Shown here one piece after another: positions 23,173 through 40,000 of a DNA stretch of 40,607 bases. Every line of letters starts with the position of its first letter. Within the stretch, counting starts at the first letter, position 1. Made by a program: the position numbers and the translations under genes. This stretch comes from Woeseiaceae bacterium (GTDB lineage Bacteria > Pseudomonadota > Gammaproteobacteria > Steroidobacterales > Woeseiaceae), in the NCBI GenBank assembly GCA_013001045.1, contig JABDNG010000001.1, positions 1 through 40,607 of the forward strand. The letters are read 5' to 3'. A model generated the notes under the pieces. The model saw nothing but the letters and a program-made list of their open reading frames with translations, made no database searches and had not been told where the DNA came from.

Positions 23173-23583
23173 GGGTCGGACCATTGTATCTGGCTGATTT
23201 CGCTACATACGTTTATTGAAACATCGCATTTCAGACCGTTAATGTGACCATTCCGATATCAAAAAGGCCATTTAGCGAAACATCCAGCTTCGTACCCGTC
23301 GGATCTTCCGTCAGGGTGTCGCTTGGCACATCACGCACCGGGAGCCAGCCTGGACGGAGGTCGTGGTCTGTGCTGATGAGGCCTATCTCTGCGCATTGAA
23401 ATCCGCCATTGGCGTGAGGGGCTTGCATCGTCGACTATCAAACCATGGTGAGCTGAAAGTGCTGCAGGAGTCTACCGGCGCTTATATCGCCGAAGCGACG
23501 GCAAAACCGTAAATTAAGGCGGTTCTTACGCCTACTCGGGCACAAAAGGCATTGTTAATCAGCGAGTTATAGTGGTCCGACCC
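23173..23583 (+). mobile_element. Internally deleted RAYT element, copy 1 (411 bp)
   Basis: Starts with GGGTCGGACC (23173-23182) and ends with its reverse complement GGTCCGACCC (23574-23583). The left about 160 bp and the right about 240 bp match the full element at 26433-27353, but the middle of the transposase gene is missing. A CTAC tetranucleotide sits near the left end; the GTAG at the right end is changed to ATAG. It begins 8 bases after the stop of the methyltransferase gene. Most diverged of the three copies. Confidence 0.75.
23285..23512 (+). pseudogene. RAYT transposase remnant with in-frame internal deletion
   Basis: 76 codons including TAA, still open, that join the transposase N-terminus (RRIFRQGVAWHITHR) directly to the C-terminal part (REPAWTE...SNHGELK, ending EATAKP). 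The deletion removes about residues 19-172 of the 245-residue parent, including the HUH motif and catalytic tyrosine, yet keeps the frame. The ATG has become CAG. It cannot encode an active transposase. Confidence 0.75.
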
Positions 23584-23700
23584 GGGGATTTGAACATAAT
23601 CTGTACCGCGCCAACGTACTTTCCCGCCTTTGATCATTGGTTTAGACTTAATGCTCAGATCCCCCAAAAAAACTCTCAAAAAAGTTGTGGGTCCCGTGTA

Positions 23701-26457
23701 ATGATTTCCCTTCGACAGATCTGCATCGGCCGTTTCGTCCGTGTATTCATAGTTGCCATAGTCGCGATTGGCTATGCAGGTAGTGCCGCAGCGACCGGAA
23801 AGGCGCCGGTCAGCAATGACGACAGCGCGACGGTGCAGCGTGGCGGAACAGTTTCCGTTTTGGACAGTGGCGAAGCGAGCGTTCTCGCCAATGACTTTGA
23901 TCCCGAGGACGATTCCCTCACTGCCTTTCTTACGCGAAACCCGACGCGGGGCATACTGACTTTCAACAGAGATGGAACGTTCATTTATCGCCATGACGGC
24001 AGCTCCAATAACGATGACGAATTTCGGTATCGCGCATTCGATGGGCGACGCTTCTCGAAGGAGGCGAAGGTAAGAATTCTGATTACGTCAGGAGAACCCG
24101 TTGCGCCGGAGATTGTTGGACAAAGCGACGTGACCGTGCCCGAGGATGGGTCTGTGGAGATCGGGCTACAAGACCTCGAGGTTGTCGACCCCGACAACGA
24201 CTATCCGCAGGATTTCACGCTGGAGGTCAACGACGGAGATAATTACACGAGAATTGGCACGACGATTTCTCCGATCGCTGATTTTAACGGCCAGCTGACG
24301 GCAGCGGTTCGTGTAAACGATGGCACCAACTTCAGCAACTATTTCGATTTGCTCATCGTTGTAACACCGCAAAACGATGCACCGTTCGTCGTCAGTCCGG
24401 TACCGGATCAGGAAACGATCGAGGGTGATGAATTCATTTTGTCCCTCGCCGAGCATTTTGATGATATCGATGACGGAGACAGTCTCAGCTTCAGCGCTCA
24501 GGGTCTACCGTCGAGCGGCACTTTTGTACTGGACGCAGACTCAGGGCTTCTTCGCGGCACGGCGATTCGAGCCGACGCACAGGATGCGCCTTATGCGGTG
24601 CGCGTAACCGCCACGGACTCGGCCGGTGCCAGTGATGCCCTCACATTCGCGTTAATGATCTTCCCGAATAACAACGCCGATATCGCAATCTCCAGTCGTG
24701 TCACACAGAACCCGACTATGCTCGGAGAGCAGTCATCTTGGAGCATCGACATCGAGAACCGCGGACCTGCACAACTCGCCGAGGGCGAGCTGGTTGGTTC
24801 CTGGACAACCAGCGGTCCGATGATGTCGCTTGACGCACCCGCTGGCTGCACGATCGAATCCAATAATTCCTCGACGCCGGGATTGCGATGCCCTCTCACG
24901 CAATTGCCGGCCGGAACTTCTTTATCGTTCGATGTTCAGGGAATGCAGGATGGCGACGGTGACAATACGCTTATCGCTGCAGTAGTTGCCGACGATCCTG
25001 TCACTGACAACAACGTTACGATAGTCAGCTCACAGGTAACGATCGCGTTCAGTGAAGGTCCAACGCAAATATTGAATCAGGCAGGTGCGGATCTCGGGGC
25101 CGCCGACTTTAATTCCGATGGCCTGCTCGATCTTGTCGCGAGCGATAATCAGACAGTCATGTACTTGAATTCGGGCAATCGTTCGCTGCCGGCGACGGGA
25201 ACAACTATAGGCAGCGGTGGTTCGCAATTAGCGATCCTGGACTGGAATGGGGACGGTGAGCACGACGTGGCCGTGGCTGGACCATCGGCAAGTGCCGTGC
25301 AAGTCCACCTCGGTGATGGAACCGGTACGTTTGCAGATTCTATCCAGATCTCTACACAGGTTCAGGGCGAAATTAGCTCGCTGTCAGGACTCGATATTGA
25401 TGCTGATGGCACGTCCGAACTCGCAATAGCCGGTACATTCGGCGCGTTGATAGCTCGAAATCAGGTAACGGGACAGACGCGAATCGATCCCCTGCCTGGT
25501 GGCGCAATATTGGATATGGCCGTGATGGATCTTGACCAGGATGGCTTTCCGGATCTTGCAGCAGTCGCCGCCGATGACCGTGCGGTGCGGCTGCTTCGCA
25601 ACTCGGGGAACGGGACATTTGTCGTACAAGATTCAATTGGAGAGGGTTCCGTAGCCCGGGTGAGCGTGGCAGATCTCGACAATGACGGGTCGTCGGATTT
25701 GTTATTGGCAATCGATGGCGACGACCTAAGCGCACCGCACATCAAGTTGATGCTCAGACAATCGGACGGTACTTATATCGTTTCGAACACGCTGGGCGCC
25801 TCGACGGTCAGTGAACTGGTCACCGGAGACATCAACGGGGACGGTCGACTGGATATCATTGCGGTCAATGAATCCGGCGTACATCAAGTGTATGTCGCAA
25901 GTCCCGGCGCGCAATACAGGCTCGACGCCGAGCAGATAGTCAGCCCCAACATGCAGACGGGAATGATCGTCGACTTCAACGATGATGACTCGTTCGATCT
26001 GATTCTAGCTGGGGTCGTCGCCGGTACAGTGGAACTTCACGCCAACAACGGTATCGGCCGCATGGGGCTCGGCGACAGGACGGCTCCCGATATCACCCTG
26101 TTGGGTAACGCTGAAGTATCCGTGCCCTCAGGCACTCCTTTCGTCGATCCGGGTGCGACTGCGGTGGATGACATCGACGGCAATCTGACAGATGCGATTA
26201 CGACCTCCGGGAGCGTGAATACGAACCTCGTCGGCACCTATACAGTCACTTACTCCGTGTCGGATCGAGCCTCCAACACGAGCCAGGTAAGCCGCAAGGT
26301 ATCTGTTGGCGTAAATCAAGGCACCGGCGGCGGCGGCGGCGGTATGCTCTCGGCTTTCACCTTGATCCTGTTGCTGATGATCGCGTCAATATTCACGCGA
26401 TCCGGCAATAGTTTGCGTTGGCCCCCATTGCCGGGTCGGACCGATGTATCTGGCTGA
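23701..26457 (+). CDS. Large secreted repeat protein with FG-GAP/VCBS repeats and a GlyGly-CTERM-like tail
   Basis: 918 codons from the ATG at 23701, chosen because it gives a signal peptide ending at SAAA (residues about 1-31); the frame is open further upstream. In order: a cadherin-like/VCBS domain (about 38-130), a second and third Ig/cadherin-type domain (about 140-360), a DUF11-like domain (NADIAISSRVTQNPTMLGEQ, about 368-470), seven FG-GAP calcium-binding repeats with the D-x-N/D-x-D-G core (for example DFNSDGLLDL, DINGDGRLDI, about 485-800), a DUF5011-type domain (DRTAPDITLLGN, about 815-890) and a Gly-rich stretch plus membrane helix and basic tail. That tail resembles GlyGly-CTERM sorting signals. 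No clear ribosome site. The last eight codons come from the adjoining transposable element. Likely a surface adhesin or matrix protein. Confidence 0.82.
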   Translation: MISLRQICIGRFVRVFIVAIVAIGYAGSAAATGKAPVSNDDSATVQRGGTVSVLDSGEASVLANDFDPEDDSLTAFLTRNPTRGILTFNRDGTFIYRHDGSSNNDDEFRYRAFDGRRFSKEAKVRILITSGEPVAPEIVGQSDVTVPEDGSVEIGLQDLEVVDPDNDYPQDFTLEVNDGDNYTRIGTTISPIADFNGQLTAAVRVNDGTNFSNYFDLLIVVTPQNDAPFVVSPVPDQETIEGDEFILSLAEHFDDIDDGDSLSFSAQGLPSSGTFVLDADSGLLRGTAIRADAQDAPYAVRVTATDSAGASDALTFALMIFPNNNADIAISSRVTQNPTMLGEQSSWSIDIENRGPAQLAEGELVGSWTTSGPMMSLDAPAGCTIESNNSSTPGLRCPLTQLPAGTSLSFDVQGMQDGDGDNTLIAAVVADDPVTDNNVTIVSSQVTIAFSEGPTQILNQAGADLGAADFNSDGLLDLVASDNQTVMYLNSGNRSLPATGTTIGSGGSQLAILDWNGDGEHDVAVAGPSASAVQVHLGDGTGTFADSIQISTQVQGEISSLSGLDIDADGTSELAIAGTFGALIARNQVTGQTRIDPLPGGAILDMAVMDLDQDGFPDLAAVAADDRAVRLLRNSGNGTFVVQDSIGEGSVARVSVADLDNDGSSDLLLAIDGDDLSAPHIKLMLRQSDGTYIVSNTLGASTVSELVTGDINGDGRLDIIAVNESGVHQVYVASPGAQYRLDAEQIVSPNMQTGMIVDFNDDDSFDLILAGVVAGTVELHANNGIGRMGLGDRTAPDITLLGNAEVSVPSGTPFVDPGATAVDDIDGNLTDAITTSGSVNTNLVGTYTVTYSVSDRASNTSQVSRKVSVGVNQGTGGGGGGMLSAFTLILLLMIASIFTRSGNSLRWPPLPGRTDVSG

Positions 26458-27353
26458 TTTCGCTACATACGTGTATTGAAACATCGTATTTTAGACCGTT
26501 AATGTGGCCATTCCGACATCAAAAAGGCCACTTAGCGAAACTGCATGCCTCGTGCCCATCGAATCTTTTGTCAGGGTGTCGTTTGGCACATCACGCACAG
26601 GTGCCATCAGAAGTCCTTTTTGCTGAAGTTCGCAAGAGACAGAAAGCGGTGGCGTCACTGGTTATTCGTGGCGCAGCGGCGTTTTGATTTATCGGTGCTG
26701 AACTACATCGCGACATCCAATCATGTGCATTTGCTGATACTTGACCAGGGCAACGGTGAGATTCCGGCGGCGATGCAGCTCATTGCCGGCCGTATCGCCC
26801 AAGAGTTCAATCGACGCAAGCATCGACATGGGGCTTTTTGGGAAGATCGTTACCACGCCACGGCCGTGCAGACAGACCAACATCTCGCACAGTGCATGAC
26901 CTACATAGATCTCAACATGGTACGTGCGGCTGCTGTAACTGTTCCGGGTGAGTGGGATGTGAGTGGTTACTCTGAAATTCAGTGTCCATGGAAAAGAAAA
27001 GGAGTGATTGACTTTCCAACGCTGTGCCAACTATTGAATGCGCGGTCCATGCAGCACTTGGCGCAACAGCGAATGCAGTCTGTGCAAGCAGCCATGCGCT
27101 CCACACGGCGGGAGCCAGCCTGGACAGAGGCCGTTGCCGTGGGTGATGAGGCCTATCTCCGCGCATTGAAATCCGCCATTGGCGTGAGGGCCTTGCATCG
27201 TCGACTATCAAATCATGGTGAGCTGAAAATGCTGCAGGAGCCTGGCGGCTCTTATATCGCCGAAGCGACGGTGAAACCGTGAATTAAGGCTGCTATTACG
27301 GCCAATCAAGCGTAAAAAAGACTGTTAATCAGTAACTTGTAGTGGTCCGACCC
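26433..27353 (+). mobile_element. Full-length RAYT element, copy 2 (921 bp)
   Basis: Bounded by GGGTCGGACC (26433-26442) and GGTCCGACCC (27344-27353), a perfect 10-bp terminal inverted repeat. Each end is itself nearly palindromic (GGTC-x-GACC). Left interior has CTAC at 26463-26466 and a stem GTGGCC/GGCCAC (26504-26531); the right end has GTAG at 27339-27342. GTAG/CTAC tetranucleotides are the recognition hallmark of REP/RAYT systems (family knowledge). It encodes one intact transposase and is the likely source of the two shorter copies. Confidence 0.8.
26545..27282 (+). CDS. REP-associated tyrosine transposase (RAYT, Y1/IS200-like)
   Basis: A 245-residue Y1 HUH endonuclease. HUH motif His60-Val-His62 in ATSNHVHLLI, basic linker FNRRKHRHGAFWEDRYH (about 88-104), and the catalytic-tyrosine segment CMTYIDLNMVRA with Tyr120, matching the YIDLNPVRA signature of RAYTs. 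These enzymes nick and join single-stranded REP DNA and are usually single-copy domesticated genes; here the gene sits inside a unit with inverted ends that exists in three versions. A C-terminal region (about 173-245) of unknown function is the part retained in the deleted copies. All catalytic residues are present, so it is probably active. Confidence 0.92.
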   Translation: MPRAHRIFCQGVVWHITHRCHQKSFLLKFARDRKRWRHWLFVAQRRFDLSVLNYIATSNHVHLLILDQGNGEIPAAMQLIAGRIAQEFNRRKHRHGAFWEDRYHATAVQTDQHLAQCMTYIDLNMVRAAAVTVPGEWDVSGYSEIQCPWKRKGVIDFPTLCQLLNARSMQHLAQQRMQSVQAAMRSTRREPAWTEAVAVGDEAYLRALKSAIGVRALHRRLSNHGELKMLQEPGGSYIAEATVKP

Positions 27354-27436
27354 GCGGATTGCAAGGCTGTACGGCCAATCAAGCGTAAAAAAGACTGTTA
27401 ATCAGTGACTTGTAGTGGTCCGACCCGCGGATTGCG
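27286..27436 (+). repeat. Tandem duplication of the RAYT element right end
   Basis: The last about 75 bp of the element (27286-27362) are repeated at 27363-27436 with few changes, including the GTAG and a second GGTCCGACCC (27417-27426). Between 27421 and 27460 the short unit GCGGATTGC recurs several times, interleaved with CGACCC. This gives the full element two alternative right ends. Confidence 0.8.
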
Positions 27437-27507
27437 GATTGCGACCCGCGGATTGCGCGGTAAGGTATTCATTCAACAGGAATTTCATAACGTCAGGAGT
27501 CTTGTCA

Positions 27508-28350
27508 ATGTACATACCAAAGAAATGGGTGCGAGCCTCCGGAACCGGCCGGTTGCCTGACGGTCGTCAGTTCCCTACTTCCGCATGGGGCTGGGGAGAC
27601 GATGACCGTACAGCAAGTAGTAAAGCCAAAAAGCGCTTGCAGAATTTGCTCGATAGGCTGCGTCGCGGCGAACCATTTCCCGAAAAGTACACGTACGACG
27701 ATCGTCCGGTTCGAGAAGAGATTCTCGAGGTCATCGGAGCAAACGCAGACAAAGCGGACGCAGTAGTGACACGTAACCGTCATGGTGTGCAGGTGCTCAA
27801 TACGGCCCGACTGTTATTTCTGGATATCGACTTTCCGCCGTTTAGTGGGATTCAACGACTGCTGGCGAAGATTGGGTTGGGGCGCGACCGGTCTGAGGAG
27901 AGCGTGCTGACCCGGTTGAGAGAAACTCTGCAACAATACTCGCGGGCCACTTTCAGAATCTACCGTACTGCCGCGGGCCTGCGCGTGATGGCCATAGACC
28001 GTGACTTCAAACCTACCGGCTCGGAAGCGGCGGAGCTTATGAAAACAACAAACACCGACCCGCTTTTCATCAAGCTCTGTGCCGTTCAAGACAGCTTTCG
28101 GGCGCGACTTACACCAAAACCCTGGCGCTGTAATAGCTCATCTCCCCCGGTTGAGTATCCTCGTGGCAATGACGCTAGTCGGCGACAATTCGAGTCGTGG
28201 TTAGGCGACTACGAGAAAGCCTGCGACGGCTACGCAACCTGTAGCTACCTGGAAACCGTGGGTAACGGCAGACCTGCGGGTTTTGCCCGAGCTTCCATCG
28301 AGCTGCATGACCGCATGACACGATGCAATGACTCACTTCCGTTAGCGTAA
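27508..28350 (+). CDS. Unknown protein with an hDhD motif
   Basis: A 280-residue soluble protein. I start it at the ATG at 27508, preceded by AGGAG nine bases upstream; the longer frame runs into element DNA. Near residue 105 there is LLFLDIDFPPF, two acidic residues in an hDhD arrangement, and near residue 148 FRIYRTAAGLRVMAID. A similar spacing of hDhD and a later basic/aromatic strand occurs in archaeo-eukaryotic primase-type folds, but I cannot confirm that. Four cysteines are near the C-terminus. Neighbours (RAYT element, pilin) do not suggest a role. I do not assign a function. Confidence 0.6.
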   Translation: MYIPKKWVRASGTGRLPDGRQFPTSAWGWGDDDRTASSKAKKRLQNLLDRLRRGEPFPEKYTYDDRPVREEILEVIGANADKADAVVTRNRHGVQVLNTARLLFLDIDFPPFSGIQRLLAKIGLGRDRSEESVLTRLRETLQQYSRATFRIYRTAAGLRVMAIDRDFKPTGSEAAELMKTTNTDPLFIKLCAVQDSFRARLTPKPWRCNSSSPPVEYPRGNDASRRQFESWLGDYEKACDGYATCSYLETVGNGRPAGFARASIELHDRMTRCNDSLPLA

Positions 28351-28384
28351 ATAGGCGGTATTCTCAACCCAACGCTACCGTGAG

Positions 28385-28504
28385 TTACATGCCAAGAGCT
28401 ATTCCAAGGCCCATCACAAAACCGAATACCAGTCCTGCCATTGCCTGTGCGATATAGGCATACAACGCCCACTTAGCCACTGTTTTCGTCTTATCCAGTT
28501 TCAC
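28385..28504 (-). CDS. 39-codon small membrane protein downstream of the pilin gene
   Basis: A GTG start (28504-28502) with AGGA six bases upstream opens MKLDKTKTVAKWALYAYIAQ followed by AMAGLVFGFVMGLGIALGM and a TAA. It has a short positively charged N-terminus and one long hydrophobic segment rich in glycine and alanine that could span the membrane. It begins 19 bases after the pilin stop on the same strand, so it is probably co-transcribed. It may be a pilus-assembly accessory or simply an uncharacterised small protein. Composition, ribosome site and spacing are the support. Confidence 0.55.
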   Translation of the reverse strand: MKLDKTKTVAKWALYAYIAQAMAGLVFGFVMGLGIALGM

Positions 28505-28523
28505 TGCCAGTCCTGTGTCCTGT

Positions 28524-29345
28524 TCACTTGTAGCCAGCGTCCTTGCACTTCTTTTTGTCCGGTTTACCGTTGGGCTTTAGGAACGGGCATCCTTCATTGT
28601 TGTTGCCGGACGCGTCGCTGCCACCCATGCTTCCGGAGGATCCGCCTCCCGAAGAGCCTCCACTCGAGGTACCGCCGTCGGAAGAACTTCCGCCCGAGGA
28701 GCTGCCGTCCGAGGAACCGCCACCCGAGGATCCATCGCCGGAGGAACTGCCGCCCGAGGATCCGCTGTCAGATGAACTGCTTCCCGAGGAACCGCCGCCC
28801 GAGGAACCGCCGCCCGAGGATTCGCTGCTTGATGTTCCGTCAGCCGACGCGCCGCTACCCGCGGACTCGCTGCTGCTGCCACTCACGGACACGCCATTGG
28901 CACTGACATCGCCGATGTCGGCCATCGTTCCGTCGTTGCGGCACTCCGGAGGAACGTGCGTGGACTTGCCCGACACAAGCTGGCATTCCCAATTCAGGCT
29001 GGAGCCGCTGCCGGCACCGATGCTCGGTACGAGCTGCAGGAGCGGCTCTGTCGAGGCGCCGGTGTTGCGAGTCTGCAGCACGATCGATCCATTTTCGGCT
29101 ATCTGCAGGTTTGCGCAATAGCGCGTCTGCGAGAACTGGAAGTCGACGCCACGACCGAAAACCTGCGATTCCGTTACGACGACCTTCGGGACTGACGCGA
29201 GGCTAATGCACTCTGTGACTTTGGCCCGGACGCTGTAGCCGTGATACGACGGGATCGCCACGGCCGCCAGGATGGCTATTATGGCGACCACGATCAGGAT
29301 CTCGATCAGGTTGAAGCCTTCGGTCTTGCTGTGTTGCTGTTGCAT
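28524..29345 (-). CDS. Type IV pilin-like protein with a long Ser/Gly linker and cysteine-bounded tip
   Basis: A 273-residue prepilin. The leader ends at Gly10, and [19 protein letters not shown] (residues 10-28) gives the prepilin-peptidase site (G-F), Glu5 of the mature protein and the N-terminal assembly helix. Residues 45-136 form a short pilin head with four cysteines (about 46, 77, 121 and 135). Residues 154-248 are an almost pure Ser/Gly/Asp linker. The protein ends with [15 protein letters not shown], a short lysine-rich loop closed by two cysteines. Ordinary PilA proteins lack the linker and tip and are about 100 residues shorter. Secreted through the type IV pilus or a T2SS-like machine at the membrane; a minor pilin or adhesive tip is plausible. 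Confidence 0.88.
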
Positions 29346-29718
29346 TGAAACTGCCTGATCGTTGAATAAAACACGCGATACTGCAGTCAGAGTACGAAAT
29401 ACGGGCTGTGGAGGACGTGCGACAGGTCACGAAATCAATCGTTCGACGAATCAAGGCCCGACGCCGCGATAGAATTTCCTATCCTTCGGCGCTCGAGGCG
29501 ACCGCTGCCGCAGCGCTTCATCATCAGCGACAGCCGCCGAGCCTCATCTACATGCAGCCGGACTCTCGCCTTCCAGATGAGGCGATCACGTTTCTGGGAG
29601 ACCGTCACTCCTTCCAAACCTATCGAAGTCCAGATCTTCAGCTTAGCTTCAGCATGCCTGCGGCTTAATCAACCGGCACAAACATCAAAGGCGTGTTATT
29701 CGCTATAAGGAGATAGCT
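29346..29718. other. Divergent intergenic region between pilin and barrel-protein genes
   Basis: 373 bases carrying the promoters of two divergent genes. No supported coding frame. It holds the GATAG dyad at 29468-29483 and, before the barrel gene, a strong ribosome site (TAAGGAG, 29706-29712). I looked for a sigma-54 promoter for the pilin gene, as is common for pilA, and found no good match. Confidence 0.45.
29468..29483 (+). promoter_or_regulatory. Second copy of the GATAG dyad/-10-like element
   Basis: GATAGAATTTCCTATC, a 5-bp inverted repeat identical in form to the site at 3945-3960 and matching it at 22 of 23 bases over 29465-29487. It lies about 235 bases before the barrel-protein start. 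The shared flank (CGC before, CTTC after) indicates a common regulatory element or a common promoter type, not chance. Confidence 0.4.
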
Positions 29719-30282
29719 ATGATTCATCACAAGCAACAAACGGTGCCGGGGTTAATTCTAACTACATTACTGTTATCGCCGCTCGCGCAGGCAGAGACCG
29801 GCCCTTATGTCGGCGCAAGCTTTGGCTCGTCACATTTTGACGAGGATTTCAGCGGCCTCAATGTTGACTCGGACACCAACGCTTTTCGCGTTATCGGCGG
29901 CTTTCAGCTCGGTGACTACTTCGGCATCGAGGCCGGCTACCACGATTTTGGTGACTTCTCAGAGAGCATCGATTTCGGCGGATTTTCGAGCGTCACGACA
30001 GTCTCCGCCGATGGCTGGACTCTCGGCGGAACGCTGGGTTTGCCGTTGAATAAGCAGTTCTCGCTGTACGGGCGCGCCGGCGTATTTTTCTGGGACGCCG
30101 ACGTAGACATTGACGGTTTTTCGATCGACATTCCGGCCGACGAAAACCCGTATTACGGCGGCGGCGCGAAAGTCGACGTCACCTCGAACCTTTCGCTGGT
30201 CGGTGACTGGACGCACTATGAACTCGACAACATCGACAGCGATGTAATCTCGCTTGGTTTCGAGTTTCGTTTCGGTCGGTAA
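29719..30282 (+). CDS. Outer-membrane beta-barrel protein (OmpA/opacity-type porin family)
   Basis: A 187-residue protein with a signal peptide (residues 1-25, cleavage AQA-ET) and alternating amphipathic strands: GPYVGASFGSSHFDED (about 28-43), AFRVIGGFQLGDYFGIEAGYHDFGDF (two strands) and a final VISLGFEFRFGR ending in aromatic-x-basic as small eight-strand barrels do. No peptidoglycan-binding OmpA C-terminal domain is present. Such proteins act as structural or lipid-contact barrels in the outer membrane. Strong ribosome site TAAGGAG six bases before the ATG. It ends 10 bases before the convergent DUF3014 gene. Confidence 0.82.
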   Translation: MIHHKQQTVPGLILTTLLLSPLAQAETGPYVGASFGSSHFDEDFSGLNVDSDTNAFRVIGGFQLGDYFGIEAGYHDFGDFSESIDFGGFSSVTTVSADGWTLGGTLGLPLNKQFSLYGRAGVFFWDADVDIDGFSIDIPADENPYYGGGAKVDVTSNLSLVGDWTHYELDNIDSDVISLGFEFRFGR

Positions 30283-30292
30283 GTATCTCGGC

Positions 30293-31099
30293 TCAGGATT
30301 GTGCGAGCTGCGCACGCAGCTCGCGCAGGCTTCCCTTTACGACCGCGGCATGTTCGCCGCCCATACGTAGTAACAGCTTTTGCCCGCTGGACAATGCTTG
30401 CAGCTCAGGGTCGGCGAACTCATACAGAACATGCGGCCGACGCAACGCGATTGGCATTGCTACATCCGGCGTTTCCAGCAGATGATCGATGACTTCCACG
30501 ACACGATCGTTAAAATATGCATCCGGGTAACCGAGGCGCTCATAAGATTGCTGCAGCAGCGGATAGAAACGCCGATAGGTATCGACGATGGCATCGATAT
30601 CGGCTGAAACAATCTGACTAACCAGCCGATCGTAACGTCCATAATTTTCCAGACTCATGTATACCAGCCCATTGTCGCCGGTCACATCCACGCGAAACGG
30701 CTCGCTCAGTCCTCCGACCGGACGGATTTTTTCAGCGAGATGATTACGTGGCAGATTGTCGATCGTAGCGACAAACCTGTCGATGATGGCGTCCCGCATA
30801 ATCAGCGGCTCGATGGCAGCACCGAAAACATCGACCAGCGCCAGCAGAAAATAGCCGTCACTGTCATCGAGTGGCGGCAGCGGCACAAGCTCGACCCGCT
30901 CGTCTGCCGGGGTGTCGTAAGGCACGACCGGATGTCTCGGGCCACTATCAACGCTCGTCTCGGCAGGCTCGGGCTGCGGCAGCGTCGCCGTTGGTTCCTC
31001 GGGCCCGGGCAGAAGTTCGTCGCGAAAGTACCAACCGGCACCTGCTATGACGAGTACCAGCAGGATCACCAGCATCAGTCTGAGATCGGGGTCTTCCAT
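30293..31099 (-). CDS. DUF3014 membrane-anchored protein
   Basis: A 268-residue protein with one N-terminal membrane helix (about residues 7-25), a proline-rich linker (about 30-75) and a soluble helical domain. The domain shows LPPLDDSDGYFLLALVDVFG near its start, FVATIDNLPRNHLAEKIRP, and YRRFYPLLQQSYERLGYPDAYFNDRV, the signature of DUF3014 (family knowledge: periplasmic, function unknown). It is likely anchored in the inner membrane facing the periplasm. It converges on the barrel-protein gene with only 10 bases between. Confidence 0.82.
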   Translation of the reverse strand: MEDPDLRLMLVILLVLVIAGAGWYFRDELLPGPEEPTATLPQPEPAETSVDSGPRHPVVPYDTPADERVELVPLPPLDDSDGYFLLALVDVFGAAIEPLIMRDAIIDRFVATIDNLPRNHLAEKIRPVGGLSEPFRVDVTGDNGLVYMSLENYGRYDRLVSQIVSADIDAIVDTYRRFYPLLQQSYERLGYPDAYFNDRVVEVIDHLLETPDVAMPIALRRPHVLYEFADPELQALSSGQKLLLRMGGEHAAVVKGSLRELRAQLAQS

Positions 31100-31202
31100 G
31101 CCCTCTACTGTAAACTATTTGCCGATTGACACTGAGCAACGCAATCGCAAGGATCGACATGAGGTCGATCTGAGTCTATCGAACGGCGGTAGAATTTTGT
31201 CC

Positions 31203-31544: not shown

Positions 31545-31558
31545 TGTTGGATAATGAC
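31540..31558. promoter_or_regulatory. Operator-like dyad between divergent genes
   Basis: GTCATT (31540-31545) and AATGAC (31553-31558) form a perfect 6-bp inverted repeat with a 7-base centre. It covers the start codon of the minus-strand membrane protein and lies about 20 bases before the DsbA-like start, so one protein bound here could affect both genes. The dyad also includes ATAATG. Confidence 0.3.
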
Positions 31559-31578
31559 AGGAACACAGAGGAGTCACT

Positions 31579-32274: not shown

Positions 32275-32406
32275 GACCCAGGCTATCTGGTTAGTTGCCG
32301 CTCAAAATTGGCACAGTGACTTCTACGCAACGATGTCCATCATCGCCTCGGCGTCGAACTTGCGTTAGCGTAGCAACTGCTCCTCGAGCGTTCTTTTTTC
32401 AGAGCG

Positions 32407-33642
32407 CTACATTTCAATCGTTTTGGTCGTATCCGTGACCGCAGACCTTCTTGAAAAGTAACGTAAGAACATGACCGCGGCGATCAAGAACAAAATGCTC
32501 GCGGCAATTAACGCCCAGAGAAGATAATTGCTTTCGGTCTGTTCAGGGACAGCGACGATCTTTAACTCGCCGGACAAACTTGTAAATCCATCAAGGCCGG
32601 ATTCGCTTACTGCAGTCACTCTCCAATAGCTGATTCCTATGGGGAGCGACGACACGGTTAGGGTGGTTTCGGGAATTCCGCGCTGATTGAATATCGGTTG
32701 CGTGCAATGTCGGTCTTTGCAAACGTCCAGGCGATAGGCGGCAGCGCCGTCCAACGGCTCCCAGCTGAACTCAATATTTTCAGCAAACACTTCATCAACA
32801 AGCGCATGTATTTCGGGGGCCGGCAGCAGACGCTCGGGTTCAGCGGGCGCCTGCCCCGCAACTGCCGTTGTACCCATTCCAGTCTCTACGGCGACACTGA
32901 CCCCCGCCGACTGCACGGCACTGGAGCCTTCGTAGACCATCACTTGCGATCTATCGTTGCCGACCTTGCGTGCTCGGGTTGAATTGTTGCCATCTGCCCC
33001 GCGCGCGGGTCGCGTTATGGTTCCCGCCACATTGATTTCAATTTGCTGCTGCGGCGCATCGATCTGCTCCAGGCGCAGTTCGGTTTCGCCGCTCCTGATT
33101 TCTATCTCGCTTCGACTTACACCGGAATCTTGCGGTTCCAGCGCCCGCAAGAATATTTGTGAATATTCCGTAACCAGGACGGTCGTGGCGCCGTCGAACT
33201 GAAGAACAGCGGACGAGTCCGCAAGCGTTCGCACGGCATCTAATGGAAACAAACGATCGCCCTCAATTGCGTCTCTCCAATCGCTCCGTTTCACGTTTTT
33301 CTCAACGACGTTGAAGATCTTTTCAATGACCGCCTGGTATACCTCCACTACCTCTACGGCAACGACCGGCGCAGGCTGCTCGTAACCAGTGATAATGTTG
33401 ATGACTTGACCCGGCATGATGATATCGGGGTCGTCCAGATCCGGGTTGACCGCGACGTTCGTATTCCATAATGCGTCAGGTCCCAAATGCTTGCGCGCCA
33501 GCTTCGCCAGCGTATCTCCTTCTCTGACCACATAGGATTCAACGATCGCTCGCAGGTCTTCGTCCGTCGCTGTTTCCGCATGTACAAATGTCTGCGCGAT
33601 GACAGTAACTGCGAGTAACGCCATGGCAATCATTCTATTCAT
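32407..33642 (-). CDS. LysM-FecR-FnIII-like membrane protein
   Basis: A 411-residue protein: signal peptide (1-22); LysM domain (YVVREGDTLAKLARKHLG...MPGQVINI, about 37-83), a peptidoglycan-binding module; a FecR-type beta domain (about 115-245, VKRSDWRDAIEGDRLFPLDAVRT..); a fibronectin-III-like domain (about 290-370, FSWEPLDGAAAYRLDVCKD) and a C-terminal membrane helix (about 376-396) with basic end. It is therefore periplasmic and anchored at its C-terminus. Its first 8 bases overlap the kinase gene (ATGAATAG), so it is translationally coupled and probably supplies an envelope-sensing partner to the kinase. LysM-FecR proteins are often next to signalling ATPases or cyclases (family knowledge). 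Confidence 0.85.
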   Translation of the reverse strand: MNRMIAMALLAVTVIAQTFVHAETATDEDLRAIVESYVVREGDTLAKLARKHLGPDALWNTNVAVNPDLDDPDIIMPGQVINIITGYEQPAPVVAVEVVEVYQAVIEKIFNVVEKNVKRSDWRDAIEGDRLFPLDAVRTLADSSAVLQFDGATTVLVTEYSQIFLRALEPQDSGVSRSEIEIRSGETELRLEQIDAPQQQIEINVAGTITRPARGADGNNSTRARKVGNDRSQVMVYEGSSAVQSAGVSVAVETGMGTTAVAGQAPAEPERLLPAPEIHALVDEVFAENIEFSWEPLDGAAAYRLDVCKDRHCTQPIFNQRGIPETTLTVSSLPIGISYWRVTAVSESGLDGFTSLSGELKIVAVPEQTESNYLLWALIAASILFLIAAVMFLRYFSRRSAVTDTTKTIEM

Positions 33643-35584
33643 TATTTGCTCGCACCATTTTTCGTATCGCAGTGTCTGGCAATATTTCGGTCGTCAAACC
33701 AGCATGCTCACCAACTTGCAAAATGTCGTCCGAAAAACTCGGCTCCCATCTTTGCACCCCTAATGCTTTCTCAAGTGAGTCCGCGACCATTGCCGCATTG
33801 TTAGGTCGCATGAGGGGATCCTTCGCAAGCAAGCTCATGACTACATTGGACAAAGGCTCCGGTATATTGCGGTCCAGTTTGCACGGCGGTGGTGGCGTGT
33901 AATTACCGGTAAGAATAAATGTCTGCTTGATCGATGTTCCCTTAAATGGATTGTCGCCGACTAAACACCGATACAACACTACGCCAACCGCAAACATGTC
34001 GGACATTTCACTGTAAGCACTTTTGTTGATGATTTCCGGGGCAATATGGCCGGGCGACCCAATCACATGAGAGTCGACCTTAAGATTCTTACTTGTAAGA
34101 CTCGCAACACCAAAATCGGAAAGCTTAATACTACCGTTGTAACCGAGAAGTACATTACTCGGCTTAATGTCCCGATGGATGATCGATCGACGATGCGCCT
34201 CGCTAAGACCTCGCAATATTCCGATGGCCAAAGCAACGGTTTGCAGCGGTGGAATAGTCTTATGGCGTTGCAGATAATCGTTCAGGCTAATCCCGTCGAT
34301 TAATTCCATCGCGATAAATGCGATATCCTGAGCATCCACTGCGTCATACACGGTAACAATATTTGGATGGACGATCTTTGCAACGATCTTCGCTTCTTTG
34401 ACGAGCTTGGCGACCAGTTCATGTCTATCGAAGAAGACCTCTAATTTTCCGATCTTTATCGTCTTTATTGCGACTTCTCGCTCAAGACGTGGGTCCCATC
34501 CTCTGAAGATGGTACCCATCGATCCGCTGGCAATAACATCCTCTATCTGATACCGCCCGAGGCTCACCGACTGTAGTTCACTCTTGTTCTTTAGCTGGCG
34601 TTCGAGCAGAGAGAAGGACTGTCGGAGCTGATCGATTTCACTGCCTGACGTGTCTGCCGAGTTGGTGCCTAACAAACGCTGTTGTGCAAGGATCATTTCA
34701 CGAATTGGCTTGATGATTTTTGTGTGCGCAGCAAAGGCAAATAATGCGCACAACAGCGAAACCGCGAGCAACGCCCTGATTGCCGCATTCCACATGTCCT
34801 GACGCGCGATTTCCGCTTTGTCGGCGGGCTGCTGCGAAAAAACAATCCAATCGGTACCCGTTACACGTGCAAATGCCGCAACTTGGCGTGCGCCGTTGTC
34901 GCCAACAAAATTGTCCGCGGCCGATCCTACGTAGCGTGCCTCGACTAACGTTCTCAAGTTATCGGGAAAGCTGGCGTAATTATTGACGTTCCCGTCGATA
35001 ATCTCGTTCTGTCCACTGCTCAGCCCTAAGACTGCATCATTCAGTGCGGGCACCGTCAGTAGGTCCTGCAGCTTTGAGCGATCGACCAGCATGAGTGCTA
35101 TATGCTTCTGGTCTACCGTGAGCTGGCGAATAACCAAATAGCTTTGGTCATTTAGCGTTATGGCCTGCAAAGCGTCTTCGGACGCGTGCTGGAGAATCGA
35201 CTCTGCCAACAAACCTACTGTCTTTTTCTGTGCAATTTTTTTAAGTCGCTGAGCATCATCGTTTGTAAAAACGGCAATCGCCAGAACTTCATTCTGAACT
35301 AGTAGCGTACTCGCAAGTAGTTCATCGGACAATTTGCTTTGAAGTTGCTCGAGAAGATTTTGATTATCCGCAATCGATCTCAATAGATTTTGCAGCCCAA
35401 GTACATATGAACTCACTTTGTCGGCAGTCGCGTCCACAGACACCAAATGAGTTTGCTGTACCTGGCCAATGAGGCTGTCCTGGTTCGCTTTTATCTGGTA
35501 CGCGGTAATTGCGAAGGGCAACAGGCCGACCAAGAGCAGGCCCAATACGATCCAGGCTATGAGGGGTAGCGCTTTCGATTTCAT
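33635..35584 (-). CDS. Membrane receptor Ser/Thr protein kinase (Hanks type) with Cache-like sensor
   Basis: A 649-residue receptor kinase. Residues 8-28 and 268-286 are membrane helices enclosing a periplasmic sensor of about 240 residues of the double-Cache type. A HAMP-like/coiled linker (about 287-340) leads to a full catalytic domain (344-605): glycine loop ASGSMGTIFRG, VAIK with Lys374, HRD with Asp472 in IIHRDIKPSNVLL, DFG with Asp490, and APE in GHIAPEI. All catalytic residues are present, so it should be an active kinase. Fixing a Cache sensor directly to a Hanks kinase is unusual; most bacterial examples have PASTA or no sensor. The next gene in the operon is the LysM-FecR protein. 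Confidence 0.93.
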   Translation of the reverse strand: MKSKALPLIAWIVLGLLLVGLLPFAITAYQIKANQDSLIGQVQQTHLVSVDATADKVSSYVLGLQNLLRSIADNQNLLEQLQSKLSDELLASTLLVQNEVLAIAVFTNDDAQRLKKIAQKKTVGLLAESILQHASEDALQAITLNDQSYLVIRQLTVDQKHIALMLVDRSKLQDLLTVPALNDAVLGLSSGQNEIIDGNVNNYASFPDNLRTLVEARYVGSAADNFVGDNGARQVAAFARVTGTDWIVFSQQPADKAEIARQDMWNAAIRALLAVSLLCALFAFAAHTKIIKPIREMILAQQRLLGTNSADTSGSEIDQLRQSFSLLERQLKNKSELQSVSLGRYQIEDVIASGSMGTIFRGWDPRLEREVAIKTIKIGKLEVFFDRHELVAKLVKEAKIVAKIVHPNIVTVYDAVDAQDIAFIAMELIDGISLNDYLQRHKTIPPLQTVALAIGILRGLSEAHRRSIIHRDIKPSNVLLGYNGSIKLSDFGVASLTSKNLKVDSHVIGSPGHIAPEIINKSAYSEMSDMFAVGVVLYRCLVGDNPFKGTSIKQTFILTGNYTPPPPCKLDRNIPEPLSNVVMSLLAKDPLMRPNNAAMVADSLEKALGVQRWEPSFSDDILQVGEHAGLTTEILPDTAIRKMVRANNE

Positions 35585-35812
35585 ATTATTCTTCTTATCT
35601 CAATCACAAGCGAGATTTAAATGGGGAATTATTATGCTATTGACTGATCCTCACAGGAAGAGCGGGAGTGTGAACGTTTGTGACAACTAGAAAATAACGG
35701 CCGCGTTAATACGAACACCGTGCCAACCGAAGAGATGAACTTTCCACTAGTACGGCGGACCGATTCACCACAACTCGGCTTTACCGAATTGTAAGGGTAG
35801 GGTGCCGACTAT

Positions 35813-35916
35813 GGTGCCGGTGTTAACTTATTACGTTAAATTCTCGCAAAAGTTGGTGCCGGTGTTAACTTATTACGTCAGATTCTCGCAAAAGTTAATG
35901 AGTTAACACCGGCACC
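35813..35916 (+). repeat. 42-bp direct repeat pair plus inverted tip
   Basis: Two tandem 42-bp units (35813-35854 and 35855-35896) begin with GGTGCCGGTGTTAACTTATT and differ at two positions in the middle. They are followed at 35897-35916 by AATGAGTTAACACCGGCACC, the reverse complement of the unit start with one mismatch. The whole can fold into a long stem and looks like a REP/BIME-type or miniature transposable unit of a family different from the GGTCCGACC elements. Confidence 0.7.
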
Positions 35917-35992
35917 GAGTCGGTCGTTGGGCGTCGCGTCTCGAAGTATTGGAATTGCTGCAGACGCAACACTTCGACATCCTGCATTACGC

Positions 35993-36138
35993 CGGACTCG
36001 CAGCTTTTCAGTGAATAGATTTCACTATCCAACGTATTCTGCGGTCATCCATGAGCTCGTATTGCGCCAGATTTGCGACCCGGTGGGTGCTCTTGAGTGA
36101 CGGTAAGTAATCCTGGTTTGGGCACCAAGATGGGCACC
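35993..36138. repeat. 131-bp (about 146 bp extended) direct repeat, copy A
   Basis: Aligns without gaps to 38348-38493. Over the core 36008-36138 versus 38363-38493 I count about 96 of 131 identical bases (73%). On the minus strand both copies keep an open frame with the shared residues WCPNQ, LP-x-LK, a QY pair and a final IVKS-x-H followed by TGA at the same site, so the relic may be coding. No family is recognised. Confidence 0.65.
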
Positions 36139-36509
36139 ACGCCGGGACCCCGGTGGTGCCGCGACACAACCCATTGAACCGTAGATAATCCATCGTACAT
36201 TGACGCTAGCGGATGACTTTTTTTGCGTAAGGTTCCGTTCCTGTCCATCGCACTGGAAGTATCGTCTGTAACCCTCCGAGAGTTGGTTAAATTGTGTCAA
36301 TGAACGCAAAAGCTGTCGCAATTACCCGACGTTTTTTTCCGTCTCTGTTCACCGCAGTGATGCTAGACTCGGCCCGAACTGCAGGTTCACTCCAGACAAA
36401 AAATCGGCGAACCACGGTAACTCCGGTAGCGACAAATCACTTACAGGCGACGTGCAGATACTCGTTCTGAATGATCGCTTGTCCTCGACAGAAATCTGAC
36501 AATTCACGA

Positions 36510-38309
36510 ATGACAACAGCGAAACTCGAAAACAGCGCGCCAACATCTCACTCGGATCGGCATCTGATCGCCGGCCGCTACCGCACGCATACTCGAATCG
36601 GGCATGGCCGGCTCGGAGAAATCTTCACGGCGACTGATGAAGGCTACGAAGAACTTGGCGTCGAGCAGCGCCTGGCGATCCAGGTAATTCCGGAAAGCGT
36701 TGTCCGTAACAACAGGCTTTTCAACAAGATCAACCTGGGTTACACCATACTTCGAGCCGCCGCTCACCCTAGTATTGTCAATTTCCTGCAGTTTGGCCGG
36801 GACGGCAAATTTGGCTTTGTCGTCATGGAGCTTCTGGACGGCCTGTCATTACGCCTGGTGCTGGATGACGCGGAGATGCTAACGCTGGATGAGACGAAAC
36901 CGGTTATTCGTGGCGTAGGCGAGGCACTCCAACTGTTGCATGCCAAGGATATGGTTCATGGCGGTTTAACGACCAAGGCCGTATTCATTACCGAAGAACT
37001 CGAGGTGCGGCTGCTGGATGTGCTGCCACTAGACTCTGCCGAACCGATTATTCGCGGCGCGACCACGAGCGATCCATTCAGTCGCTGTACGGTCGAGGAC
37101 GACGTCTTTGATCTGGCTTGTCTCGCATACGAGATGCTGACCGGAAAACACCCGTTCAACTACAGTTCCCCGGCCGAAGCCAGGTTGGCGGGGCTCGAAG
37201 CCGAGCGCATTGTTTCGCTGACCGATTACGAATGGAGCGCACTTCGTCGCGCGCTGTCGTTCGAGCGGGAGCAACGGACGTCCTCGATCGCAGACTTTAT
37301 GCGCGAGTTTGACATCAGGGGCACGGAGCGTCTTCGACCGACAGTAGATCAACCGCCCAGGCACGAGCCCATCGCTTATCCGGCGGTGGCAGAGGCAGCG
37401 CCGCTGACCCGGCCGGGCGTACCGGCGCAAAGCGCCGCGACCGTCGATTCGGTCCCACGGTACGAAAATAGACCGCCGAAAGCGAGGCCGAGTCCCAAGC
37501 GGGCCCGCCCGCTTCGAACGACTTTCCTGGGGATGTTGCTTGCCGGGCTCAGTGCCTGGTCTATTTACGGTGAACCACAGGAGAGCATCGTAAATTTGAT
37601 CAGCTACGTTGACGAAAGTATGAATGTCGGGCTAACAGGGCGACATGATGAGGTTGTCAAGATCTCGACACCGGATCCTGCCCGATCGGTCTCAACGGAC
37701 CGTCTTGCGCTGGTCGACCATCCTGCTGCCACAGCACCTGCAGCTACCGACGAGGTAATGCCCGCAGATTTGGAGGCGAAGCGGTCTGAACCGGAACACA
37801 CGGCAACGACTGAAGGAGTTGTTGCGGTCTTGGCGCAACCGACGGATCGGCCCGCGCCTGCTGCTCCGCCGAAAGGCGGGAACACTACGGACACCGGCGA
37901 CGAGGCGACGAACCGCACGGCGGATGAGGTTTCGGCGGATACGAATGCCGCTCCGATGCAAACGGAATCCGAATTGGGTTTCGTTGAATCCATTGTCTCG
38001 GTATCCGAGCGCGACGGTGCTGCACGAATTGCTGCACTGCGTACCCAAAACTCGGCAACACCACTGATTTGGTGGACCAGCGAGCACACTGCCAATGCCG
38101 ACCAGGACTTTATCTCCGTAGAGCAACAGACATTGGCCGATGTGTCAATCGAAGACAGCAACATGCTGTATGTTTCACTGGTCAACGACAACCTGCCCGA
38201 GCCACCGGAATCTTTTTTCATAAGCCTCGGGTTCCGCAATACTCAGCAGGGGCAAATCGAGCGAATTGCCACTGTCCGCGTGGATATTATCGACGACGAC
38301 TTGCCATAG
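36510..38309 (+). CDS. Transmembrane pseudokinase with periplasmic Calx-beta domain
   Basis: 599 codons from the ATG at 36510; an in-frame ATG at 36471 is an alternative. Residues 22-270 are a Hanks-type kinase fold (GRYRTHTRIGHGRLGEIF glycine loop; FVVMELLDGLSL; DLACLAYEMLTGKHPF) but the catalytic residues are lost: VAIK is LAIQ (Gln58), HRD is VHGG (Gly152 in place of Asp), and DFG is LDVLP. A proline/arginine-rich stretch precedes a membrane helix (about 337-354). After a low-complexity Ala/Thr/Glu-rich periplasmic spacer comes a Calx-beta domain (about 486-599: VSVSERDGAARIAAL..., NLPEPPESFFISL, VDIIDDD). It lies near an active receptor kinase, so it may be a scaffold or allosteric partner. 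The gene is flanked by the 131-bp repeats. Confidence 0.85.
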   Translation: MTTAKLENSAPTSHSDRHLIAGRYRTHTRIGHGRLGEIFTATDEGYEELGVEQRLAIQVIPESVVRNNRLFNKINLGYTILRAAAHPSIVNFLQFGRDGKFGFVVMELLDGLSLRLVLDDAEMLTLDETKPVIRGVGEALQLLHAKDMVHGGLTTKAVFITEELEVRLLDVLPLDSAEPIIRGATTSDPFSRCTVEDDVFDLACLAYEMLTGKHPFNYSSPAEARLAGLEAERIVSLTDYEWSALRRALSFEREQRTSSIADFMREFDIRGTERLRPTVDQPPRHEPIAYPAVAEAAPLTRPGVPAQSAATVDSVPRYENRPPKARPSPKRARPLRTTFLGMLLAGLSAWSIYGEPQESIVNLISYVDESMNVGLTGRHDEVVKISTPDPARSVSTDRLALVDHPAATAPAATDEVMPADLEAKRSEPEHTATTEGVVAVLAQPTDRPAPAAPPKGGNTTDTGDEATNRTADEVSADTNAAPMQTESELGFVESIVSVSERDGAARIAALRTQNSATPLIWWTSEHTANADQDFISVEQQTLADVSIEDSNMLYVSLVNDNLPEPPESFFISLGFRNTQQGQIERIATVRVDIIDDDLP

Positions 38310-38347
38310 TCCTTCGACCGCAGCGATATCGATGCATTAATCCATGC

Positions 38348-38493
38348 TGGACACGCGGATTGTCAGTGAACAGATTTCACAATCCTGCGTGGCCCAAGGT
38401 AACCCGAGAGCATGTATTGCGTCGGAGTTGGGGCGTGGTCGATTACCTTGAGTGCCGGTAGGTCATGCTGGTTTGGGCACCAAAGTGGGCACT
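38348..38493. repeat. 131-bp (about 146 bp extended) direct repeat, copy B
   Basis: The partner of 35993-36138, same orientation, 2,355 bp away. It starts 39 bases after the pseudokinase stop and ends 53 bases before the radical SAM start. The minus-strand frame ends IVKSVH-stop as in copy A. Confidence 0.65.
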
Positions 38494-38545
38494 CTAGTCG
38501 GTATGCATGAGTGTCCCGATCTGTTGTTGCGCTATAGTTATCAAT

Positions 38546-39475
38546 ATGGCTGCCGATCCCTCCATCGAGACGCTGCCGACGCCGCTGTCGGGGCTGCACT
38601 TGTTGCTGACCTATGAGTGCAACTATGCGTGCGACCACTGCTTTGTCTGGGGCGGGCCGTCGCAGACCGGCACCATGACGGTCGAATCCATCGAGCAAAT
38701 CCTCCGCGAGGCCGACACGCTGGGCACTGTCGAATGGATCTACTTCGAGGGCGGTGAAGCGTTTCTCTATTTCGCGATGCTGCGCACCGGCATTCGCCTT
38801 GCCAAGGAACGCGGTTACAAGGTCGGCATCGTTACCAACGCCTACTGGGCAACTACGGACGCTGATGCCCTGGAGTGGTTACGGCCACTTGCCGGTTCGA
38901 TCGATGATTTATCCATAAGCAACGACGTTTATCACGGCAGTGATGAAGGCGTAAACCAGGCCGAGATTGCGCGCCGTGTTGCCAAGCGGCTCAATATGCC
39001 GGTCGATTTTATCCGCGTCGCCGCGCCCGGCGCTTGCGACGTGCCTGCTGGGGTCGGTCAACTACCTGCGGGTGAGTCAGCAGTGCTGTACCGGGGCCGC
39101 GCAGCGGACAAGCTCTCATCACTTGTCGAGGCAAAGCCGTGGGAGCAATTCACGGTATGCCCGTGGGAGGATTTGCGAAAACCGGAACGGCTGCACGTCG
39201 ACCCATTCGGCAACCTGCACATCTGCCAGGGCATATCGATCGGCAACCTCTTCAAGCGCCCGCTTGTAAAGATCATGCGTGAATACGACCCTGACAGTCA
39301 CCCAATCGTCGGACCCTTGCTCGTTGGCGGCCCGGCCGAGATTATTCGCCATTACGAGCTTGCCCATGAGGACGGTTACGCCGATCACTGTCACCTTTGC
39401 TATAAGGCGCGCTGCGCCCTGAGGGAGCGCTTTCCCGATGTGTTGACGCCGGATCAGATGTACGGTGACATCTGA
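38546..39475 (+). CDS. Radical SAM protein with SPASM-like C-terminal cysteines
   Basis: A 309-residue radical SAM enzyme; the ATG at 38546 is preferred because the upstream in-frame ATG gives a poor cysteine-rich lead. The 4Fe-4S motif is C25-x3-C29-x2-C32 (CNYACDHC), followed by the GGEAFL glycine-rich SAM motif (about residues 67-72) and SISNDVYH. The C-terminal half has CPWEDLRKPERLHVDPFGNLHICQG and then DHCHLCYKARCALRERFP, seven cysteines in a SPASM/twitch-like arrangement that would hold an auxiliary cluster. SPASM enzymes usually modify peptides. I find no precursor-like small gene beside it, so the substrate is unknown. Gene is in an island between repeat B and a RAYT-derived element. 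Confidence 0.88.
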   Translation: MAADPSIETLPTPLSGLHLLLTYECNYACDHCFVWGGPSQTGTMTVESIEQILREADTLGTVEWIYFEGGEAFLYFAMLRTGIRLAKERGYKVGIVTNAYWATTDADALEWLRPLAGSIDDLSISNDVYHGSDEGVNQAEIARRVAKRLNMPVDFIRVAAPGACDVPAGVGQLPAGESAVLYRGRAADKLSSLVEAKPWEQFTVCPWEDLRKPERLHVDPFGNLHICQGISIGNLFKRPLVKIMREYDPDSHPIVGPLLVGGPAEIIRHYELAHEDGYADHCHLCYKARCALRERFPDVLTPDQMYGDI

Positions 39476-39492
39476 CGAGTTAACAGCCGGAG

Positions 39493-39942
39493 GGGTCGGA
39501 CCGACGTATCTGGCTGATTTCGCTACATACGTTTATTGAAACATCGTATTTTAGACCGTTAAATTGGCCATTCCGACATCAAAAAGGCCACTTAGCGAAA
39601 CTGCATGCCTCGTGCCCATCGAATCTTTTGTCAGGCCGTCGTTTGGCACATCACGCACAGGTGCCATCAGAAGTCCTTTCTGCTGAAGTTCGCAAGAGAC
39701 AGAAAGCGGTGGCGTCACTGGTTATTCGCAGCGCAGCGGCGTTTTGATTTATCGGTGCTGAACTACATCGCGACATCCAATCAGGCGCATTTGCTGATAC
39801 TTGACCAGGGCAATGGTGAGATTCAGGAGTCTGTCGGCGCTTATATCGCCGAAGCGACGGCAAAACCGTGAATTAAGGCTGCTCTTACGCCTACTCGGGC
39901 GCAAAAGGCATTGTTAATCAGCAATTTGTAGTGGTCCGACCC
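39493..39942 (+). mobile_element. Internally deleted RAYT element, copy 3 (450 bp)
   Basis: Bounded by GGGTCGGACC (39493-39502) and GGTCCGACCC (39933-39942), with CTAC near the left end and GTAG at 39928-39931. The left about 335 bp and right about 115 bp match the full element closely, but about 470 bp of the middle are missing; the junction differs from that of copy 1. It begins 17 bases after the radical SAM stop. Confidence 0.8.
39605..39871 (+). pseudogene. RAYT transposase remnant, 88 codons, in-frame deletion
   Basis: Retains the start codon and the first about 73 codons of the transposase, then jumps in frame from GNGEI to the final QESVGAYIAEATAKP. The HUH motif His-Val-His has become Gln-Ala-His, and the catalytic tyrosine is deleted, so it cannot cut DNA itself. 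It might still bind element ends, or be plain debris. Confidence 0.75.
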
Positions 39943-40000
39943 CAAGATTCCAGATTAAGATGCTATAGAATCTCCCATTCTTAATTATTTGCTGTGCAAC

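Follow-up and report, generated by a model that had tools for sequence, protein, structure and literature searches.

The window analysed here, a stretch of 40,607 nucleotides from a Woeseiaceae bacterium (contig JABDNG010000001.1), contains a 921-bp unit (unit 2) with a Y1/HUH transposase gene between terminal inverted repeats (TIRs), together with two shorter, internally deleted units of 411 bp (unit 1) and 450 bp (unit 3), and the coordinates of these features are collected in Table 1. All six ends that an earlier note on this sequence had placed on the three units are exact, so that the units share 10-bp inverted ends, and they lie in a single orientation within 17 kb. A seventh exact tip is found at 27417–27426 as part of an additional right end, and the seven tips of the window, returned by a search allowing at most one mismatch and all of them exact, compare with a mean of 2.69 in shuffled sequences, seven being reached in one of 100 shuffles. 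The note had described the short units as two independent derivatives, and the internal deletions do differ as it stated, whereas the history of unit 3 appears to be less simple: it is a mosaic whose left part is 96% identical to unit 2 and whose right 119 nt resemble unit 1 (92%) more than unit 2 (85%). The assembly that holds the window (2.6 Mb, 146 contigs, 78% complete) contains no further copy of the 921-bp unit in its remainder, and the terminal 10-mer occurs in it in 12 exact copies, compared with eight for its backward control; seven of the 12 are in the window, four belong to two 274-bp units on contig C107 (5414–5687 and 11836–12109; loci L010 and L011 of genome G000) and one stands alone. 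The two 274-bp units, 6.4 kb apart, have the same 10-bp tips around an interior that is unrelated to the transposase unit. A long FG-GAP/cadherin-like reading frame (23572–26457) starts within the right end of unit 1 and runs to a stop codon within the left end of unit 2.

Table 1. Features of the window, with positions counted from its first nucleotide.
Feature	Position	Strand	Basis
Y1/HUH transposase gene, 245 aa; NHVH (H60, H62), WED, Y120 in YIDLNMVRA	26545..27282	+	Pfam Y1_Tnp, 40 bits; conserved residues; model
Unit 2, very probably a complete TIRYT element, 921 bp between tips	26433..27353	+	Exact tips; alignment
Left TIR of unit 2	26433..26459	+	Arm 26432–26459 71% complementary to 27327–27354
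Right TIR of unit 2	27327..27353	-	Complementarity to left arm; family end consensus
Additional right end, spaced 73 bp from the unit 2 right end	27363..27426	+	93% identical to unit 2 positions 854–921; direct repeats
Short tandem repeats GGATTGC / CGACCCGCGGATTGC adjoining the additional right end	27418..27460	+	Anchored 15-nt repeat, period 21
Unit 1, 411 bp, non-autonomous	23173..23583	+	Retains unit 2 positions 1–169 and 677–921
Unit 3, 450 bp, non-autonomous	39493..39942	+	Retains unit 2 positions 1–335 (unit-2-like) and 803–921 (closer to unit 1)
8 nt separating the unit 3 right tip from the onset of homology with relatives (39951)	39943..39950	.	Matches in G108, G027 and G107 share the same start

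The transposase has Y1_Tnp as its sole Pfam match, and residues H60, H62, W99, E100 and Y120 are invariant among 28 aligned homologues; the 921-bp unit encodes an intact Y1 enzyme, as the earlier note had stated. The HuH motif NHVH and the W[EQ] of TnpAY1 subclass 2.1 are both present (as NHVH and FWED in the window protein), and the tyrosine signature reads Y---NM in place of the class 2 Y---NP, with N124 and M125 invariant in the 28 proteins. The structure model (mean pLDDT 85.0, pTM 0.85) has its top match in the PDB in the E. coli RAYT bound to a repetitive extragenic palindromic (REP) hairpin (4er8, E 3.8e-7), followed by the transposases of IS608 and ISDra2, and a PDB sequence search with the transposase gave no match at a threshold of 0.001. 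Enzymes of subclass 2.1 have a C-terminal extension containing a helix-turn-helix-like domain; here the C-terminal part of the model is helical up to residue 216, but Pfam reports Y1_Tnp alone. The NCBIfam models NF047646 (REP_Tyr_transpos) and NF033573 (IS200) score 60.2 and 17.5 bits, under their cut-offs of 80 and 55, respectively.

Relatives were collected by a scan of genome contigs, and the best 80 loci of the 294 obtained were kept for the family counts; the record titles of the relatives name Gammaproteobacteria, Desulfobulbaceae, Geobacter, Bacteroidales, Spirochaetes, Scalindua and others. Using a degenerate pattern with one mismatch allowed, both ends were called in 64 of the 80 loci, the left end in 65 and the right end in 77, with a median tip-to-tip distance of 933 bp, and some left ends scored as missing occur further out (Granulosicoccus loci). 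The outward consensus is identical for both sides, TCAA-N3-GTTR-N4-GGTCCGACCC, within inverted repeats of about 27 bp; 109 of 142 ends are exactly GGTCCGACCC, and, with the three units of the window counted in, 34 of 79 right and 39 of 66 left ends have GTTR at a distance of four nucleotides from the 10-mer. The family tip reads GGG(G)TCGGACC, with the extra G in 57–58% of ends, and past the tip the information content of the aligned family ends drops to 0.5 bit or less. The ATAACG that lies outside the tip in Thioalkalivibrio was considered as a target or tip-extension motif and, on account of this low value, dropped as not general to the family. A second end family, GGGTCAGACCTTGCC, is mixed into the same clusters at the Thioalkalivibrio loci L158, L160 and L161, and exact opposed tips about 260 bp apart occur in genomes of other groups (G136:C6:114560-114819 and 117468-117727; G132:C11:43676-43936), which are possible short derivatives.

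The earlier note had labelled the gene a RAYT and had taken CTAC and GTAG tetranucleotides near the ends as agreeing with RAYT recognition. A classical RAYT that serves REP repeats in trans would be consistent with the fold, which is closest to 4er8, and with the match to NF047646; however, this match lies below the cut-off, and nine of the 12 exact 10-mers in the assembly are in paired units and one is in the extra end (backward control, eight). Furthermore, the ends of unit 2 fold no better than shuffled sequences (z of -0.16 and -0.58), and GTRG is not enriched, being present within 22 nt inside 16 of 142 ends and in 13 of 142 of the control stretches 100 nt further in. Since neither an excess of hairpins nor an enrichment of GTRG is found, the ends are TIRs and not GTAG-tagged REP hairpins, and a classical RAYT is very improbable. 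Y1 transposases flanked by TIRs were named TIRYT in 2013 (Di Nocera et al., PMC3733652) and were linked to TnpAY1 subclass 2.1 in 2018 (Quentin et al., PMC6006769), so that, going by the available portions of these papers, there is precedent for a Y1 gene moving together with its own ends. Unit 2 is very probably an insertion sequence (IS)-like element of this TIRYT (TIRtron) group.

The TIRYT elements described in the available portions of the two papers likewise have a Y1 HUH transposase of about 240 aa between TIRs and no REP hairpins, and their TIR families are reported as dimers and clusters (PMC3733652, PMC6006769). They differ from the present family in the TIR, which reads GGG(G)TCGGACC here and not GGGGWSAS (G where the motif has A), a motif that, according to the 2013 paper, only some TIRs of the group have in common (PMC3733652), as well as in the tyrosine motif, Y-N-M here and Y-N-P there. 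Internally deleted derivatives and the tip duplications described below are found here and are unmentioned in those portions of the two papers (PMC3733652, PMC6006769). With the RAYT/REPtron and REPIN systems, as far as they are covered in the accessible text of PMC3116915, the family shares the enzyme fold and an inverted pair of end sequences, whereas here there is no GTAG-tagged hairpin and the ends enclose the gene itself. The Y1 fold, the catalytic residues and a mobile unit are common to the IS200/IS605 family (IS608, ISDra2), which differs in having subterminal hairpins instead of TIRs (folding was examined for unit 2); the present protein also appears to have an extra C-terminal part, and no plasmid or phage copy was found. 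As in bacterial miniature inverted-repeat transposable elements, short non-coding or non-autonomous units carry the ends of an autonomous element; unlike them, units 1 and 3 are plain internal deletions with one copy each.

The IS-like mobility of the element is well supported, as is the proposal in the earlier note of a unit with defined ends and non-autonomous derivatives, by shared ends combined with unshared flanks. Several pairs of loci in unrelated surroundings align only about as far as the ends, same-genome pairs among them (L068/L082 of a Geobacter metagenome-assembled genome (MAG), 96%; L054/L072 of a Desulfobulbaceae MAG, 86%; L065/L074, 85%), and other pairs are orthologous with common flanks (L078/L101 and L071/L090). 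Sequence shared beyond the 10-bp ends, which the note had named as the sign of segmental duplication, extends for just 6–7 nt: the flanks of units 1 and 2 have in common ATTGCC at the left and six of the first seven nucleotides at the right, and nothing further, and these units are therefore unlikely in the extreme to be segmental duplications. Remnants of segmental duplication would suit the position of all three units within 17 kb in one orientation and the lack of a clean empty site; the conservation of the ends across phyla, in addition to the short likeness of the flanks, makes this origin very unlikely for the three units. Clustering as in the window, where all found copies of the unit lie within 17 kb, resembles that in Thioalkalivibrio, in which 20 of 20 further element-matching fragments in seven regions are oriented like the local element, and that in the finished genome G133, which has, among the matches listed, two opposed tip pairs of about 1.08 kb that are 6 kb apart. 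Units 1 and 3 were presumably mobilized in trans by the full element.

Several results weigh against this mobility. The check that the earlier note had regarded as decisive, a precise pair of occupied and empty sites, yielded no clean empty site, with both flanks contiguous and the unit lacking, for the window flanks in 73 genomes of the window's genus, for the joined flanks of three Thioalkalivibrio loci in 30 genomes of that genus or for those of three Geobacteraceae-type loci in 76 genomes. The element also differs from very active ISs in that searches of plasmids (72,556 records, E 1e-20), phages (50,697 records, E 1e-10) and viral contigs gave no copy. On the right side of unit 3, homology with three relatives, in which this flank is 90–92% identical, sets in at 39951, which is 9 nt past the tip; upstream of this point the three relatives have a different common sequence. 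The left neighbour of unit 3 is located elsewhere in them, and unit 3 therefore lies at a rearranged junction. The right flank of L068 is a repeated sequence, which starts 6–12 nt from the tip in other genomes. The preference of the sites for gene orientation is weak, the left neighbour having its 3' end toward the unit in 34 of 55 cases and the right neighbour in 26 of 56. The right flank of L061 is a dispersed repeat of about 105 bp, often 93–98% identical, that is matched in 16 of 30 Thioalkalivibrio genomes.

The DNA adjoining the tips is often a short tandem duplication. This was scored, in a test that superseded a first tandem-repeat score, as the longest exact direct repeat with a period of 5–30 whose first copy starts between 5 nt inside and 2 nt outside the tip, with a pass threshold of at least 8 nt (at least 10 nt in a stricter version) and with control positions 100–1950 nt outside the ends. 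As many as 40 of 138 testable ends pass, compared with 33 of 4671 control positions, and under the stricter threshold the counts are 27 of 138 and seven of 4671; at least one tip duplication is present in 35 of 78 loci. Removal of six orthologous loci leaves 36 of 129 ends and 32 of 4365 controls, and random flanks grafted onto the same ends pass at 0.6–0.7%. In an earlier control using CGACCC elsewhere, eight of 180 positions were positive, seven of those being other TIR tips. In the window, the tandem repeats at the extra right end are the signature of a tip duplication. We regard the tip duplications as real with hardly any reservation, and their presence in many bacteria looks new: no literature on short tandem duplications at TIRYT tips was found, although the papers considered were those under an open licence, which makes this weak evidence of absence.

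Tip duplications also appear in resident orthologous copies. The orthologous left ends of two isolates, L158 (Thioalkalivibrio sp. AKL19) and L161 (T. versutus AL 2), are 97.2% identical over 759 columns with six mismatches and one gap, and this sole gap is a 15-nt tandem duplication at the tip. L078 and L101 are 95.2% identical over 6703 nt with internal gaps of 2, 3, 3 and 9 nt, the last two of which are at the left and right tips, and one and the same left flank is duplicated differently in L058 (12 nt), L101 (11 nt) and L078 (14 nt). Between L071 and both L090 and L088 (82 and 81% identity) there are 12-nt gaps at the right tip, as well as other gaps elsewhere, some of which are beside further left-end copies.

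The overall best explanation, which we consider likely, is a TIRYT element with deleted copies whose transposase acts on its own resident ends. As in other Y1 enzymes, the transposase would nick single-stranded DNA at an end, hold the 5' phosphate on Y120 and leave a free 3'-OH, and then rejoin the strands; besides moving the unit, it would go on working on ends already in place. If it nicked the DNA at the tip or close to it, a brief round of displacement synthesis primed by the 3'-OH, with the displaced strand then religated, would give a 6–23-bp tandem copy of terminus bases plus flank, and repeated rounds could give tandem end arrays such as that at 27354–27460. This route is suggested because cleavage by TnpAREP near a REP leaves a 5'-phosphotyrosine and a 3'-OH, which, in the available text of that study, is a possible primer for replication or a substrate for strand transfer (PMC8266576). 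Whether the transposase made the tip duplications is evenly balanced on the present data, and we put forward only tentatively, as somewhat doubtful, the wider proposal that TIRYT-group Y1 transposases idle on their own ends without moving and thereby add microhomology-independent tandem copies of tip plus flank.

The main rival is ordinary replication slippage at the C-rich, partly palindromic tip, in which the transposase would not be involved. Classical slippage usually relies on direct-repeat microhomology. Slippage would suit an inner boundary that varies, and some decoy GACCC sites also show tandem repeats; however, the decoys do so at 2% (14 of 650, at least five of the 14 being inside already duplicated tips), compared with 51 of all 209 TIR tips in the 80 loci, and the excess is confined to the tip, with 40 of 138 positive there, two of 137 at +50 and none of 134 at +100. 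Among 23 perfect duplications, with periods of 6–23, the microhomology, measured as the overlap of the repeat beyond its period, is 0 nt in 12, 1 nt in six and 2–8 nt in five, and the 18 of 23 with 0–1 nt are near the chance expectation (calculated by hand). This low microhomology agrees less well with classical slippage, which we regard as rather unlikely, than with a nick by the transposase that is followed by short synthesis and religation.

Assembly errors in metagenome contigs would agree with the difference between isolates (2 of 23 ends) and the remainder of the 80 loci (38 of 115, by subtraction), yet isolate genomes are positive, including the finished chromosome G133, the isolate pair L158/L161 differs by a duplication, and an 8-nt duplication is not the kind of error expected from De Bruijn assembly; such errors are thus a most improbable source. 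Insertion of the element into pre-existing short tandem repeats, which would likewise place repeats beside the tips at 40 of 138 ends, is largely refuted, as in 36 of 46 cases (at least 7 nt) the first copy begins inside the terminus, so that the repeat unit holds the last bases of the element itself, and as the repeat number varies among orthologous resident copies.

Other observations count against action of the transposase on its resident ends. The inner boundary of the duplications lies anywhere between 7 nt inside the tip and 1 nt outside it, which leaves no single nick position; the proposed mechanism does not explain this scatter, and several cleavage positions must be assumed for it. 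Besides the low count in isolates given above, further isolate tips pass in seven of 54 cases with the inner motif and in two of 42 where the exact 10-mer lacks it (on visual inspection these, too, are real ends), the Thioalkalivibrio background being 26 of 1939. In the genus and order of the window, other TIR families give a weaker signal (three of 29 compared with five of 580, and four of 50 compared with ten of 1046, in sets that overlap), and of the seven window tips (three units and the extra right end) the extra right end alone reaches the threshold.

The tip duplications bear on the question of how REP-like sequences are amplified by Y1/HUH transposases. According to the accessible part of Bertels and Rainey (2011; PMC3116915), REPIN clusters are tandem repeats of REPINs including flanking sequence, whereas the tandem units found here are mostly 6–23 bp of tip plus flank and not whole REPINs. 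If the tip duplications are cleavage scars, transposase activity would be readable from genome sequences, the points of cutting and rejoining could be inferred from such data and the origin of tandem REP/TIR arrays would be testable by the deletion of one gene. If the idling of the transposase on its own ends is true, it would be the long-sought elementary step that builds tandem end and REP arrays (clusters like bacterial interspersed mosaic elements), and the tip of such an element would, in any genome, be a molecular record of transposase activity. The family-level end consensus, for its part, allows such elements and their short copies to be annotated.

Beside unit 3, a gene of 191 aa (39989–40564) is 90–92% identical in three genus mates, in which other common genes are about 70–78% identical, and lies in different neighbourhoods; it has no Pfam or PADLOC match and may be a mobile cargo gene. 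On the other side of the unit, a radical SAM protein (38507–39475) matches pVip, a model of prokaryotic viperins, at the sub-family level (52.7 bits, no curated cut-off being shown). A repeat of about 143 bp at 38349–38493 and 35991–36137 is present in many genomes of the genus, in some of them in several copies.

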